In this document: positions 5,217 through 29,973 of the stretch, in pieces | Layout: the number at the start of each line of letters is the position of its first letter | Numbering within the stretch: the first letter of the stretch is position 1 | Assembly (NCBI GenBank): GCA_945870455.1 | Contig: CAMBSL010000026.1 | Coordinates: forward strand, 1 to 39,213 | Length of the DNA stretch: 39,213 nucleotides | Reading direction: 5' to 3' | Source: Pirellula staleyi DSM 6068 | GTDB lineage: Bacteria; Planctomycetota; Planctomycetia; Pirellulales; Pirellulaceae | The notes under the pieces: model-generated | Databases searched by the model: none | Told to the model about the DNA's origin: nothing | The model's input: only the letters and a program-made list of their open reading frames with translations | Made by a program: the position numbers and the translations under genes

Positions 5217-6422
5217 CTACCCATTTGTCCCCTCCAGCGCTTTCAACACTTGTTCGATTTGAATCGCGGTCTTGTAGTAGATTAAGGGCTGTCCAATATC
5301 CACTCCCATCTTTCCTTTGATTGATTCGGCTACTGCCAACAGAATCGGCTGATCGTGAAATAGCTTGAGCACTTTTGATTTATGGTTTAGATACTCGGGA
5401 GTCCAGAAGCCGATGACTTCCATCAGGACCCGCCTTCCATCCTCATGGACAAATACGAAGTCCGGGAAAAAAGCGGTTTGTCCTCGATGCAATATCTCCG
5501 TCTCGCGTTCCAATCGCCAGCCGTTTCTCGCTTGCTCGCCCCACTTTGCGCAAAAGGACTCTTCCACTTTCGAATCGAAATCATCCGCTCGGATCGTTTC
5601 GCTTGTCAATCCACACTCATCATTGAGTTCCAGACGTAGCGAACCTTGAAATCGCGATGCTCGAATCTTGGCAACCATCGACCAACCTTGGCACGACAAA
5701 AGCCCGGGCAAGAACTTGGCCATGGCGGATCCGTACCTATGTGTATTTTGCAAAAGGGACGCTGGCCCATCGAATTCAAAGAAATACCGATTGGATCGTT
5801 TGGTGATTCGGTGCATGAGCCTTGCAAGTTTCGCATATCGAAGAATCGATTTGAAATCTTGCGTTGCCACGACCGTCAACTCGACTGCATCGAACAATGC
5901 AACTTGTGCTTGTGCCACGTTGTATCGAGCCAAAAGGGACTCCGCCCGTTCAAATCCCTCGAATGACTTCAGTACATGGTACTCCATCAAATCCTCAAAA
6001 AGCCTATCCTTCAATTGCGGCCAGTCCATCCCATGCTCTTCGGCGATTCGACGCTTCATTTCGGATTCATCGTGCTCAAAAAGCGAATCGCTTATTGTCA
6101 CAAGCGGATGGCATTTGGCGGCAGCACGAAAGACCGATCGCCTAAGTTTCGCGGTCTTGCTTTTGTCTCCATCCGCATATTCGGATGCATCATCTAGCAG
6201 TTTACAAAACGCGAGGATCCGCCGAGGTGGGCAGTCGCTCCCGCTGAACAGTTGCCGCACGGTGTTGTGCAGTGACCGCCGATCTTTTCCGACGCCATTC
6301 TGGTAAACATGCAACATGGATTGAGCAAGCTCCACATAGAGAGCATGCGACTTGCGAGTCAATCGATCTGGAATGAGTCGCCCGCGATCAAAGGTGGCGA
6401 TGGCGAGTTCCCGCGTAAGCAT
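5217..6422 (-). CDS. Bax1-like nuclease, DUF790 family (partner of XPB helicase)
   Basis: The protein resembles DUF790/Bax1, the 'binds archaeal XPB' nuclease that acts with XPB in archaeal-type nucleotide excision repair. I start at the ATG at 6422 (401 aa), where a Bax1-like N-terminus MLTRELAIATFDRGRLIP begins; a longer open frame to 6659 lies wholly inside the helicase gene. An N-terminal helical region precedes a C-terminal PD-(D/E)xK-like nuclease core: EESF near residue 288, FPDF with Asp321, LMEVIGFWTPEY with Glu335, and a Lys near 347. The start lies 35 bases inside the end of the XPB gene, which suggests translational coupling and a shared complex. Bax1 is best known from archaea and is less familiar in bacteria. 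Family call is strong; the role in repair here is inferred. Confidence 0.8.
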   Translation of the reverse strand: MLTRELAIATFDRGRLIPDRLTRKSHALYVELAQSMLHVYQNGVGKDRRSLHNTVRQLFSGSDCPPRRILAFCKLLDDASEYADGDKSKTAKLRRSVFRAAAKCHPLVTISDSLFEHDESEMKRRIAEEHGMDWPQLKDRLFEDLMEYHVLKSFEGFERAESLLARYNVAQAQVALFDAVELTVVATQDFKSILRYAKLARLMHRITKRSNRYFFEFDGPASLLQNTHRYGSAMAKFLPGLLSCQGWSMVAKIRASRFQGSLRLELNDECGLTSETIRADDFDSKVEESFCAKWGEQARNGWRLERETEILHRGQTAFFPDFVFVHEDGRRVLMEVIGFWTPEYLNHKSKVLKLFHDQPILLAVAESIKGKMGVDIGQPLIYYKTAIQIEQVLKALEGTNG

Positions 6423-7824
6423 CGTTCTTCCTTCGTTTGCGAGATCGTTCGGCTTCGTTGGTATCCCTGGCGACCACTTCGTAAAGGATCGCTCGCTCGT
6501 TTCCTCGTCGGCGTAGGATCCGACCGAGGCGCTGCTTGGCTTGTCGGGTCGACGCCATACCACCGATGACGACTGCGATCTTGACCGCGGGTAGATCGAC
6601 CCCTTCGTCGAGCACTTGATTGGCAACAATGGCTGGGTAGATGCCATCTCGCAAGCCATCCAGATAGTCGAGTCGTTCCGCCTTGCCGCAATGATTTAGC
6701 AAGCAGGGGAGAAGAAAGCGGAGAGAAACGCGCCGAGCCATCATGTTGGAGCCAGCGAAGATGAGTATGGGTGTTCCGTGATGCAAACGAAAGAGATCTT
6801 CCAGAACGCGCAGTTTTTCCTCAGCGCAATCTTCAATGGACTGCTTCTCTTTGAAGGCGCGCAAAATGGCTCCCGATTCGGCACTTCTAAGTGACTCAGC
6901 ACACAAATCCTGCCAATTGAAATTGGGTTCCTCTTGTCGGCGATCGTAGACATAGGTTGAGACTTGCTCCGCCAAAGTATCATAACGGACTCGCTCGCGA
7001 TCATTCAATTCAACCGAAATGCGAAATACATCGTACTCCGCCAGCGAACCGCCGCTGACTTGATTGATCTCAAGCCGATAGGCTATTGGCCCGATGAGAT
7101 GTTCCAACTGGGAGTGCTGGCCATCGCTGCGCTCAAGAGTTGCTGTTAAACCCAAACGCATGGGTGCAATACTCATTCTCGCCGCATCGCCGCGAATGGG
7201 ACCAGGCAAATGGTGGCATTCATCAAAGATGAGCAATTGGAAACGGTTGCCAAAGGTCGGCATATGAATGCACGCGCTGTCATAGGTGGTGACAGAAACC
7301 GGCTTCACATTGCGGATATTGTCACCGATGATGCCCGCATCGTAGCCGAGACCTTGAAGGATGCGACGATGCCATTGATACATCAAATCGCGGATAGGTG
7401 CGACGACCAATGTGCTGCACCCCTGGTCTGCCATGATGCGCAACGCTACTTCGGTCTTGCCAGTCCCTGTTGGCATGACAACCACTCCGCGGCGATGCTG
7501 TGTCCATCCGCTGACCGCATCGAGTTGCTCGGGCCGAAGGATAGGAAGTTTCACTTCAGACCAAGCGACCTTCTGCCATTGCGGAACACGATCGAGCGTG
7601 CCGAACGCATTTATGCTCAGGATCTGACGAATCTCCGGATAGTGAATGGCGATGGTTCGCCAGGTTTCCGCGCGGTCATCCCAAGTCCATAACTTATCCC
7701 CGAAGACCTTTTTGATGGCTTTCTCTGTCCATCGATCGAGCACCAGCGTACCGCCACTGAATTCAAGGTGGGCTTGATTCAGGATGTTGGCTCGCTGCTT
7801 GGTTTGACTTGAGGATTGTTCCAC
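6388..7824 (-). CDS. XPB/Rad25-type DNA helicase (superfamily 2)
   Basis: This is a 478-residue SF2 DNA-dependent ATPase of the XPB type, expected to unwind or remodel damaged DNA. The N-terminal ~90 residues look like the damage-recognition-like region of archaeal XPB. Motif I PTGTGKT is at 118-124, motif II DECHH at 201-205, motif III LTAT at 226-229, and motif VI QAKQRLGRILRR at about 428-439. The position of the XPB RED motif, just after TAT, reads R-S-D (232-234) instead of R-E-D. The C-terminus is highly basic. The start is GTG 7824; no better in-frame ATG exists and the ribosome site is weak. The gene begins 17 bases after the MnmM-like gene and overlaps Bax1 by 35 bases. A generic type III restriction-like helicase is less likely given the Bax1 neighbour. 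Confidence 0.82.
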   Translation of the reverse strand: MEQSSSQTKQRANILNQAHLEFSGGTLVLDRWTEKAIKKVFGDKLWTWDDRAETWRTIAIHYPEIRQILSINAFGTLDRVPQWQKVAWSEVKLPILRPEQLDAVSGWTQHRRGVVVMPTGTGKTEVALRIMADQGCSTLVVAPIRDLMYQWHRRILQGLGYDAGIIGDNIRNVKPVSVTTYDSACIHMPTFGNRFQLLIFDECHHLPGPIRGDAARMSIAPMRLGLTATLERSDGQHSQLEHLIGPIAYRLEINQVSGGSLAEYDVFRISVELNDRERVRYDTLAEQVSTYVYDRRQEEPNFNWQDLCAESLRSAESGAILRAFKEKQSIEDCAEEKLRVLEDLFRLHHGTPILIFAGSNMMARRVSLRFLLPCLLNHCGKAERLDYLDGLRDGIYPAIVANQVLDEGVDLPAVKIAVVIGGMASTRQAKQRLGRILRRRGNERAILYEVVARDTNEAERSRKRRKNDAYAGTRHRHL

Positions 7825-24649: not shown

Positions 24650-24975
24650 TTAAGTAGTCACTAAGTCCAGAAGCGCGCGAGTCAAAATGGTTGATGGAAG
24701 TCCAGCTACGACAGTTGTTGCATTTCAGAATCACAAACTGCTGTCATTCGTTCGTTTTGGAAACATAGGTTGACTTTTCGCAACGTGACGCCGGATTGAT
24801 ATGTTTCTTACCAACTACAACGGCTTCGGAGCGTGATTGGCATTGATGCAACGACAAAATCGATAAAATCGGACTCATTCTTCGCAAACGCAGGTTGCAC
24901 ATGGAATATCCTAGAGAGGGTTGGATGCACACAGGTTTGTCTTTTCGGTTGACCCGTTTTTGGAGAGTTTAGATT
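24650..24975. other. Divergent intergenic region, no gene seen
   Basis: The 326 bases between the NtrC-type regulator and the ABC-like gene contain no supported gene. I looked for a sigma-54 promoter (TGGC-N8-TTGC type). The nearest candidate near 24837 has the wrong spacing, and TTGACT at 24770 has no -10 box at proper distance. GGAGAG at 24962-24967 is the ribosome site for the ABC-like gene. Confidence 0.4.
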
Positions 24976-26832
24976 TTGTCATCACAGATTTGGCAGCGGT
25001 TGATGAGGCAGATCAAGGCTCCGGAAACCTTGTGGGCCGTATGGGTGTTCGGGACCCTTGCGGGCGTACTGATACCTTTGTTGCTTGTCATGGGAGGGAT
25101 GCTCATTCAGTTATTGCTGGAAGGACAGCAAGGACTTGCTCTCAATTCCTCGAGTCCCTTGCCCGAACAGCTTACGGTCGGAGCATTTTTTAACCTGCCC
25201 ACGGTTTGGCTGAACACCGGCGGAAGCGCTCTCCGCGGGGTTTTAGGTATCGTGGTTTTAGTTGTGATCATCATCGCGCTTGAGTGCATCTCATTATTGA
25301 TTTGTTATCGAGCCGCCTTGCACACTTCGTTAGAGATTGCAGTTGAAGTGCAACGTAAGCTATTCGAAAAATCCAACGCTTTAGCGATTGAACAAGGATT
25401 GTCGGGGCAGCAAGAAGCCTTGAGAGACATGATGTTTATCCACGTTCCTCAAACGCGCGAAAATGCCAGTCAATGGTACCGCGTGTTTCCAAGGCATCTT
25501 GTCCAGTCGTTGCTACTGATCGCATTGGCTTGTTCCATTCAACTTTCGGTCACTGTGTTGGCGCTGGTTTGTGCGTTTGTGCTTTGGCTGCTTTTCAGCA
25601 ACTTGGATGTCACGCGTCGCAAGCGACGTCCAGTCTTGTTCGAACGAGCCCGAGAATCGAGCGAGCAGCTTGCCTACCTCTGCGAAACGGCTCCTTTGCT
25701 TGCATCCGTACACGATCAAGAAGATACCAAACTCAACTATGAGGGCCAATTGCATGCATATCGACAAACTCAATTACAGCTTTCCGACGGTGGTATCTGG
25801 AAATCTCCAACAATGCTCCTCGCAGGAACTTCGCTAGCCGCTTTTTTGATGGTTGTGATTTCGATTCGATTTCTGGACAGTTCCGGCAGCCTCCACTTTA
25901 GCGAACTTGCCACATTGTGCGCTGCGGTTGTGCTGTCGGTCGCAGGCATGCATCGATTTTCGCGCGCGGTTCGACGGTACAAATCAACCGAGCAAGCCGT
26001 GAATCAACTCGCTACCTACCTTGAACAACCCACGTTGGACAAGAGCAGCCTCAGACGCGCTCAGTCTGTCGACATGCTTCGTCAAATTGAATTGGATCAT
26101 GTGACGATTCGAAACAGTTCGGGCCGGAAACTGCTCGAGGACATTTCGGCGACAATACGATCCGGTGACTTAACAGCCATTGTGGCAAGCGAGTCCGTTC
26201 AAGCAAGCGCATTCGCCGAACTGATTTTGGGATTTGGTCGACCGGCGAGTGGACGCATCCTGATTGACGATCTGGATTCCACTGATGTCGATCCAACCAT
26301 CTTTCGAAGGTCGTCTTTATGGGTCGCTGCCCGAGGTCCATTGGTACATGGCACGTTGGAGGAAAACCTGTGGGCCGGCGTCGACCACGATGCGACGGTT
26401 GATTTGATGTCCTTTGCAAAAACGATGCATGTCTCCGAAGCGATTCTGAATCTTCCTGACGGTTTGATGACGTTGGTCACACCCAACGAAGATCGCATCG
26501 TGCCGGATTATCTGTTCCGGTTAGGGTTGACGCGAGGGCTGATCAAAAAGCCTCAATTGATTGTGGCACAAGAACCAGAGCTGCGAGTCAAGGCATCGAC
26601 CGAGGCCGAAACGCTCTCTGCAATGCTTCAGCTCAAGTCGACGACGACCATGCTAGTCGTATTGGCAGAACGTCTGTCAACTCTGCGAGCAGCAGACCAG
26701 ATTATCGTGCTTCACGAACATCGCATCGCTGCTGTCGGTACTCACTCCGATCTCTTGGAGCAAAGCGAGATCTATCGCCACCTTAACTACATCCAGTTCT
26801 CACCTTTCAGTGAATCGGTGCAACCCAACTAG
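24976..26832 (+). CDS. ABC-exporter-like protein with degenerate nucleotide-binding domain
   Basis: The 618-residue layout is that of a half-size ABC exporter: about five or six membrane helices (residues ~19-47, 88-112, 173-207, 280-326), then a nucleotide-binding domain from ~370. The start is TTG 24976 with GGAGAG eight bases upstream; ATG 25003 is an alternative. The NBD aligns along its length (GTLEENLWAG, ERLSTLRAADQIIVL, GTHSDLL) but its catalytic motifs are gone. The Walker A position reads VASESVQASA (403-412, Lys to Ala), the Q-loop Gln is Ala452, the LSGGQ position is IVPDY (508-512), Walker B Asp is Gln532 (Glu533 kept), and the H-loop His is Glu565. The frame is intact, so this is probably a functional non-ATPase rather than a fresh pseudogene. 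It may need an active partner. Substrate is unknown. Confidence 0.8.
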   Translation: MSSQIWQRLMRQIKAPETLWAVWVFGTLAGVLIPLLLVMGGMLIQLLLEGQQGLALNSSSPLPEQLTVGAFFNLPTVWLNTGGSALRGVLGIVVLVVIIIALECISLLICYRAALHTSLEIAVEVQRKLFEKSNALAIEQGLSGQQEALRDMMFIHVPQTRENASQWYRVFPRHLVQSLLLIALACSIQLSVTVLALVCAFVLWLLFSNLDVTRRKRRPVLFERARESSEQLAYLCETAPLLASVHDQEDTKLNYEGQLHAYRQTQLQLSDGGIWKSPTMLLAGTSLAAFLMVVISIRFLDSSGSLHFSELATLCAAVVLSVAGMHRFSRAVRRYKSTEQAVNQLATYLEQPTLDKSSLRRAQSVDMLRQIELDHVTIRNSSGRKLLEDISATIRSGDLTAIVASESVQASAFAELILGFGRPASGRILIDDLDSTDVDPTIFRRSSLWVAARGPLVHGTLEENLWAGVDHDATVDLMSFAKTMHVSEAILNLPDGLMTLVTPNEDRIVPDYLFRLGLTRGLIKKPQLIVAQEPELRVKASTEAETLSAMLQLKSTTTMLVVLAERLSTLRAADQIIVLHEHRIAAVGTHSDLLEQSEIYRHLNYIQFSPFSESVQPN

Positions 26833-29220: not shown

Positions 29221-29973
29221 TCAGCCTGCGAGCGACCTCGGTAAATGCTCAAGTGCCCACGCACCGATGATTTTGATTCTTTGGTTTTGCAGTTTTTTGA
29301 GAATTAGGATTGTGCTTCGTGCGTCCGATGTGGCAAGCATTTGAATCACAACGCCATTGCAAAGTCTGCCCATGCGCGACATGGCTGGAGAGCCTGCGTC
29401 ACCCAAGTCGAACAAAATGAGTCCAAACTCTTGTTTCCATTCGAGCAGGTCGGCGAGTTGGCAATTCCAACGCCTTTTTTCTTCTTTCGAATCTCCGAAA
29501 CCCGCCCAATGGACTTGGGCGTAAGCCCCATCTTGCACGAGTCCTTTCGAGATTGCAATCTCATGTTCCGGCGTACCGGATCGAAGTCGTACGACAAGAG
29601 TGTTTCGGCTGGTTTTCTGTCCGCAGCGAAGAGCGACGTCCGAAACGATTCGTTCTACGAGCGCAGGGTCACAGAATCCCGTTGTACCGAGCCCGAGCAA
29701 GTAAGGCTTCGTCTTCAGAATACTTGCAATAATCTCATCGACTGGCAAATGCACGAGCGGCGGTGACAAGTTCTCTCGTGGCTCAGCCGTGACAGTGACA
29801 ATGTCTGGTACGCTTGTTTTCGAGCTCAACCCATTTTTGACGCGATCGAGTGGGACATCGATTGCTTTCGGAAGCACTTGAAGCGAAACTGGTTCTATCT
29901 CCATTTCCATTCGATACCGATCTAGCGTCGAAATCCATCCACCGATTCGTGACTTGGGGTCGTTGAGATTCAT
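29221..29973 (-). CDS. Degenerate BY-kinase/MinD-like protein
   Basis: A 250-residue protein whose C-terminal half resembles the P-loop domain of bacterial tyrosine kinases (CpsD/Wze type): FGLILFDLGDAG in the Walker B place, then CNGVVIQMLATSDARS and IKIIGAWALEHLP. The Walker A place reads LLGLGTTGFCDPALVER and lacks the GxxGxGKS/T lysine. No tyrosine cluster is present at the C-terminus. It is probably a pseudo-ATPase of this family. Its ATG at 29973 overlaps the stop of the ExeA-like gene by four bases (ATGA), so the two are translated together and probably interact. A role in exopolysaccharide export or its control is inferred from the glycosyltransferase and epimerase downstream. Confidence 0.6.
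   Translation of the reverse strand: MNLNDPKSRIGGWISTLDRYRMEMEIEPVSLQVLPKAIDVPLDRVKNGLSSKTSVPDIVTVTAEPRENLSPPLVHLPVDEIIASILKTKPYLLGLGTTGFCDPALVERIVSDVALRCGQKTSRNTLVVRLRSGTPEHEIAISKGLVQDGAYAQVHWAGFGDSKEEKRRWNCQLADLLEWKQEFGLILFDLGDAGSPAMSRMGRLCNGVVIQMLATSDARSTILILKKLQNQRIKIIGAWALEHLPRSLAG

Follow-up and report, generated by a model that had tools for sequence, protein, structure and literature searches.

A predicted family of pseudo-ATPase ABC exporters in the Planctomycetia tied to an orphan ABC-2-type permease

ABC exporters are defined by their ATPase. Here we describe a gene of Pirellula staleyi DSM 6068 whose product, judged from its sequence, falls into an ancient family of pseudo-ATPase ABC exporters that selection has maintained in the Planctomycetia, the class to which Pirellula (Pirellulaceae) belongs. 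An earlier note, made from the letters of the same DNA, regarded the loss of every motif in one protein as rare. The near-total loss is real; it extends, however, to a class-wide family, and one catalytic residue is kept. The finding is larger than the note had it: a class-wide clade of putative pseudo-ATPase exporters that is tied to an orphan permease of the ABC-2 type. An essential-gene study of Planctopirus limnophila has been published. We found no account of such a pseudo-ATPase exporter family in the open-licence literature, and the main text of PMC10632474 contains no word beginning with 'ABC'.

The window, that is, the whole stretch of DNA analysed, is 39,213 nucleotides long (contig CAMBSL010000026.1), and coordinates without a locus or genome label refer to it. 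The gene is an open frame with a TTG start that encodes an ABC-exporter-like protein of 618 aa; its features are listed here.

24976..26832, forward strand: predicted pseudo-ATPase ABC exporter half (open frame, exporter alignment, hydrophobic segments)
24976..26832, forward strand: membrane domain at about residues 1-360 and degenerate nucleotide-binding domain (NBD) at about residues 365-618
24962..24967, forward strand: ribosome-binding site GGAGAG, 8 bases 5' of the TTG start, read from the sequence
26185..26211, forward strand: Walker A site, ASESVQASA instead of GxxGxGK(S/T)T, by alignment with canonical exporters
26323..26340, forward strand: Q-loop site, VAARGP, Gln replaced by Ala, by alignment with canonical exporters
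26497..26511, forward strand: signature site, IVPDY instead of LSGGQ, by alignment with canonical exporters
26557..26577, forward strand: Walker B site, LIVAQEP, Asp replaced by Gln, catalytic Glu retained and followed by a family-typical Pro, by alignment
26662..26673, forward strand: H-loop site, LAER, His replaced by Glu and the next Arg retained, by alignment with canonical exporters
26773..26799, forward strand: family-typical C-terminal tail YRHxxYxxF, from alignment A1 and the residue frequencies of the family

The intact frame and the good ribosome site recorded in the earlier note both hold, and a GGAG-type site with a TTG start is conserved in all five relatives compared (L038-L042). 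The closest relatives with named records are metagenome-assembled genomes of a Pirellula sp. (96% identity) and of Pirellula staleyi (92%). In the window this pseudo-exporter gene is solitary, flanked on one side by a divergent gene that reads as a sigma-54 response regulator and on the other by a convergent glycosyltransferase gene. Elsewhere in the window, at 5217-7824 on the reverse strand, a DUF790 gene overlaps a gene for an XPB-like helicase that carries an XPB damage-recognition domain, presumably an XPB-Bax1 pair in a planctomycete. The product of 29221-29973 (reverse strand) is without a Pfam match at E 0.001; of the ten genes for which dN/dS was calculated, its gene has the highest values, 0.57 relative to L038 and 0.275 relative to L039.

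Alignment and hydrophobicity give the protein the architecture of a type IV ABC exporter, a six-TM domain fused to an NBD with homology to MsbA and Sav1866. Residues 90-608 align with a 587-aa exporter, the exporter alignment spanning its length, and the family profile matches Sav1866 over profile positions 92-614 of 628, in agreement with the earlier statement that the NBD can be aligned to exporters from end to end. The hydrophobic segments (18-50, 79-116, 170-213, 277-301 and 305-324, of which 170-213 has room for two helices) are consistent with six TM helices. Thus the protein resembles the ABCB-type half exporters MsbA and Sav1866 in carrying a six-helix-consistent domain and then an NBD in one chain; in contrast to them, its ATP site is lost. 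It scores 15.8 bits with Pfam ABC_tran, below the cut-off of 25, and PF00664, the model for the membrane domain of exporters, gives no match. The best NCBIfam model is MsbA with 119.2 bits, and identity with this lipid A exporter was rejected, the score being far under the equivalog cut-off of 602 bits. AlphaFold2 monomer models from a six-sequence input reached a mean pLDDT of 36.5 for the whole protein and 37.2 for the degenerate domain alone; since these models are poor, the retained fold is argued from sequence.

The ATP-site motifs were read against 12 canonical exporters of the same phylum, which were chosen by having Walker A and so contain it by construction; the remaining motifs are present in them, barring one H-loop gap and minor variants. 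Against this reference the window protein has replacements at Walker A, at the Q-loop Gln, throughout the signature, at the Walker B Asp and at the H-loop His, all of which an active pump would need to bind and hydrolyse ATP, and the A-loop Tyr is replaced by Asn. The alignment agrees with the earlier list of replacements, namely Walker A Lys, Q-loop Gln, LSGGQ, Walker B Asp and H-loop His, and none of three alignments contains a shift that would restore canonical motifs. The catalytic Glu of Walker B, which that account did not mention, is the sole survivor among these motif residues.

The same pattern recurs across the class. A profile was built from alignment A1, whose 35 rows are the window protein and 34 of 40 loci (L089, L091, L094, L096, L099 and L107 being omitted), and was searched against 393 genomes of the phylum, scoring three candidates in each. 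These are 294 genomes from other classes and 99 from the class of the window, a membership read from the permease scan described below as 85 hits and 14 misses, the misses ordered by kinship. Scores of 490-778 bits were obtained in 62 genomes, followed by 411 in G065, 399 in G066 and values from 391 downward in the remainder. With a family cut of 395 bits, chosen after the motifs were read, the pseudo-exporter is present in 64 of the 99 sampled class genomes and in none of the 294 outside the class (best 376 bits, three candidates per genome, judged by score alone). A rescan with 36 candidates each of 30 class genomes that have only the permease and of four that lack it gave at best 391 bits; G028-G031 score 352 bits or less. 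L199, L200 and L201, which rank among the highest scorers of genomes lacking the family, each have a canonical Walker A and read as canonical exporters. Within the genus, 25 of 26 other genomes carry the gene, the exception being G003, which is 77% complete.

In a quick tree of 56 members and the 12 canonical exporters, a branch with an SH-aLRT of 100 sets the family apart. This tree and the motif table predate the recognition of L107, L202, L207 and L232-L236 as members; rows L038-L042 (the same places as L009-L013) and L005-L008 (no match) were left out of the motif alignment. No member (0/56) has P-loop glycine 4 or 6, the Walker B Asp or the A-loop Tyr, and all (56/56) have the catalytic Glu and the Arg after the H-loop His position. 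Between these extremes lie the Walker A Lys (10/56, all in groups f21, f23 and f26), the H-loop His (10/56, nine in f21/f23/f26 and one, L071, in f1), the Q-loop Gln (8/56) and the signature glycines, the third in two members and the fourth in 24, with a Gly-Gln remnant of the signature in some members of f22 and f23. Some derived residues are shared within the family, namely Asp at position 3 of Walker A (38/56) and Ala for the last Thr, at position 9 (50/56). Pro follows the catalytic Glu with a frequency of 0.93, where canonical exporters have Ala. In the tail YRHxxYxxF the first Y, R, H and second Y are invariant in A1 and F nearly so, with family frequencies of 0.87-0.98. Because most losses are common to the whole clade, the motif loss goes beyond chance, and the shared Asp and Ala are not what scattered decay would be expected to leave.

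The earlier note had judged the gene not to be a recent pseudogene and had proposed a search for close homologues and a test for purifying selection. Our data uphold the judgement: dN/dS is 0.056-0.136 in nine unsaturated pairs of relatives, within the range of neighbouring genes, and the start and ribosome site are conserved. A tenth pair has a dS of 1.86 and a dN/dS of 0.093; further pairs are saturated. Against the two nearest relatives the pseudo-exporter gene gives 0.136 and 0.120, and nine neighbouring genes 0.058-0.572 and 0.034-0.275, respectively. One stop codon was flagged in five of 35 homologue rows; homologous frames cut around the best matches contain none, four of them being cut by contig ends. 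By the sequence measures used, the degenerate NBD is more strongly constrained than the membrane domain. Its dN/dS is 0.032-0.117 versus 0.065-0.151 for the membrane domain, being lower in each of the nine unsaturated pairs and also in the tenth (10/10). Seven comparisons with more remote congeners (L015-L031) give identities of 48-54% for the NBD versus 25-39% for the membrane domain, and the mean majority residue frequency is 0.51 in the degenerate domain versus 0.36 in the membrane domain.

In most loci outside the genus, the gene next upstream on the same strand encodes an ABC-2-type permease. Permease P0003 scores 34.6 bits with PF12679, above the cut-off of 27.2, and P0002 scores 23.9, below it; a weak match to GldF was obtained for P0003 only. 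With P0003 over the cut-off, the partner resembles ABC-2 permeases of the NosY/GldF kind (PF12679). In the 13-row permease alignment A2 the region EIEGxTAxTxLSKPxxRxxFxxGK is invariant and the end LFEDRDLA mostly so. The permease profile finds no solved structure at E 0.01.

All 64 genomes with the pseudo-exporter also have the permease (55 in the three-candidate scan and nine f23 genomes in a later scan). In 58 of them the two genes are linked on the same strand with the permease upstream: 51 have matched stretches at most 702 bases apart, and seven are further f23 genomes. At L068 the two genes overlap by 4 bases. They are unlinked in G000, G018, G118, G135, G068 and G096; the genome of the window is among these six, its permease lying on another contig (G000:C14:39045-40781). 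In the window's genus the two genes are separated, yet both are kept. Over the 99 class genomes, 64 have both genes, 31 the permease only, four neither, and none the pseudo-exporter only. A further set of 12 f23/f26 genomes has the permease throughout, on another contig in nine cases; in eight of the 12 the pseudo-exporter is assigned from one search match. G010, a genome of the same genus that is 89% complete, has the pseudo-exporter and gave no permease hit. A tally of stop-to-stop gaps, in which 40 of 63 members are linked, uses the first matched piece only, omits the neighbours L078, L085 and L106, and draws on a non-random set rich in unlinked Pirellula genomes. Since the genomes are related, the linkage counts are not independent events; a functional linkage of the pseudo-exporter with the permease, as read from gene order and co-occurrence, is nevertheless well supported. 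The permease does not need the pseudo-exporter, because it occurs alone in 31 of the 99 class genomes.

A canonical ABC ATPase lies within five genes of the permease in one of 68 permease loci, that of the window's own genome, where it is five genes off. Systems of the NosFY and GldAF type have their ATPase gene adjacent; in contrast, the partner described here is without such a dedicated gene in 67 of 68 loci and is mostly paired with the pseudo-exporter instead. The missing ATPase gene is less certain than the count suggests, since the first gene caller, which keeps the longest frames, hides genes in G+C-rich loci; it hid permease genes in such loci and the pseudo-exporter of L107, and stop-to-stop frames corrected it in part.

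Compared by eye, the main groups of the permease tree correspond to those of the pseudo-exporter tree. On the permease tree, which is limited to the 68 loci where the gene caller detected a permease and leaves G028-G031 unlabelled, presence and absence of the pseudo-exporter require 10 changes, at least five of them forced by starred branches. Gains and losses are not formally separable, because two outgroup rows do not group; an old gene that was lost repeatedly fits best. At 10 of 14 class loci without the pseudo-exporter, the permease has kept its neighbours, either a small gene read as acylphosphatase immediately upstream or a Gfo/Idh gene at most two genes downstream, which is the pattern that clean loss would leave.

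The surroundings of the permease offer several further observations. A small gene read as acylphosphatase lies near it, mostly just upstream, at 19 loci (e.g., L081:11271-11642), and such a gene is also found where the pseudo-exporter is missing. In one pair the permease branch is longer without the pseudo-exporter, 0.56 for L219 (G191) versus 0.19 for its sister L072 (G209). At L076, L078, L145, L224, L230 and other Pirellulales loci, convergent Gfo/Idh, LpxA, LpxC and OmpH-like genes follow downstream in an arrangement that resembles a lipid A cluster; Gfo/Idh is confirmed by Pfam, and LpxA, LpxC and OmpH are our own reading. A link to lipid A export through these neighbours was considered and set aside, as the genes are convergent and may reflect old synteny only.

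As the best explanation of these data we propose, with belief and doubt in equal measure, a non-hydrolytic subunit of exporter fold that would serve the permease as scaffold or regulator. The pseudo-exporter would dimerise as other exporters do, its two pseudo-NBDs staying folded and in contact with the membrane helices and neither binding nor hydrolysing ATP in the usual way. With the ABC-2 permease it would form a complex or a dedicated functional pair, in which it might hold, gate or position the permease without ATP hydrolysis, the dead cassettes providing structural coupling or docking. If energy is supplied at all, its source would be an ATPase that is encoded at another place and works with the permease. 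A regulator, scaffold or specificity part is likelier than a core subunit, because the permease manages without the pseudo-exporter in some lineages, and operon partners may also share a pathway without touching. A more specific version, which we put forward tentatively and regard as rather doubtful, is that an exporter-fold homodimer with two pseudo-ATPase cassettes is the non-hydrolytic partner of the permease, an undescribed arrangement that would replace or supplement a normal ATPase and would have been fixed before the radiation of the Planctomycetia. The earlier note had suggested a regulatory or scaffold transporter half, or a partner of an active subunit elsewhere. A non-catalytic role with a partner elsewhere indeed appears likely, but a canonical active subunit in that place does not: where a co-occurring canonical half-transporter was to be sought, we found a permease of the ABC-2 type that lacks an adjacent ATPase gene.

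The wide retention of the gene in the class, the six-helix-consistent membrane domain and the absent ATP site would also suit an ATP-independent membrane transporter or lipid facilitator that acts by itself, is built on the membrane domain of an exporter and has no more than a pathway in common with the permease. A passage of the review PMC7756269 describes a D-loop mutant of TAP that became a nucleotide-gated facilitator. We consider this unlikely, since it leaves the constant presence of the permease unexplained, and the lower conservation of the membrane domain in both identity and majority residue frequency would be odd if the whole function resided there.

Passages of PMC7756269 also describe heterodimeric exporters with one degenerate site as common, one composite site being canonical and the degenerate one still holding ATP. 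The pseudo-exporter could then be the degenerate half of such a heterodimer, its active half being encoded elsewhere, and the genome of the window holds four other strong exporter matches and one weak match; the Gly-Gln remnant in some f22/f23 members points the same way. Like the proteins of the TM287/288, TmrAB, TAP and CFTR type, the pseudo-exporter has a degenerate NBD under selection. In contrast to them, it has lost Walker A and signature together, so neither composite site could work with the window protein, the signature's third Gly survives in only two of 56 members, and remnants are seen only in some distant ones. Moreover, no canonical half is adjacent in the window and 40 loci, where one exporter-like canonical gene (L104, non-adjacent) was found and the gene caller may hide others. 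Altogether we regard a heterodimer as distinctly improbable.

Nucleotide might still be bound or slowly hydrolysed by non-standard residues through the conserved Glu, which all 56 members keep, 10 of them with a Lys at Walker A and 10 with the His; we rate this as very unlikely, with both P-loop glycines, the A-loop Tyr and the Walker B Asp absent throughout and the window protein also without Lys, Gln, His and the entire signature. That the gene is decaying, as the loss of nearly every motif and the 10 changes on the permease tree (at least five forced) might suggest, has next to no probability given its low dN/dS with neither frame decay nor relaxed selection, homologous frames free of internal stops, a conserved start and ribosome site, and retention in 64 of 99 class genomes.

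The conservation of a family without the ATP site, nearly always alongside one particular permease, suggests that the design of a pump has been put to a use other than ATP-driven transport. Automatic annotation can be expected to label proteins of this family as ATP-binding transporters. Its members form a graded series, with a Lys without the glycine loop in most f23 proteins, Gly-Gln signature remnants in f22 and the catalytic Glu alone in the window's Pirellula protein, which could help to show in what sequence the parts of an ATP site are lost. With the ATP site lost in both halves, the domain under selection and the permease an orphan, such a system would separate the structural coupling of the cassette from its ATPase role.
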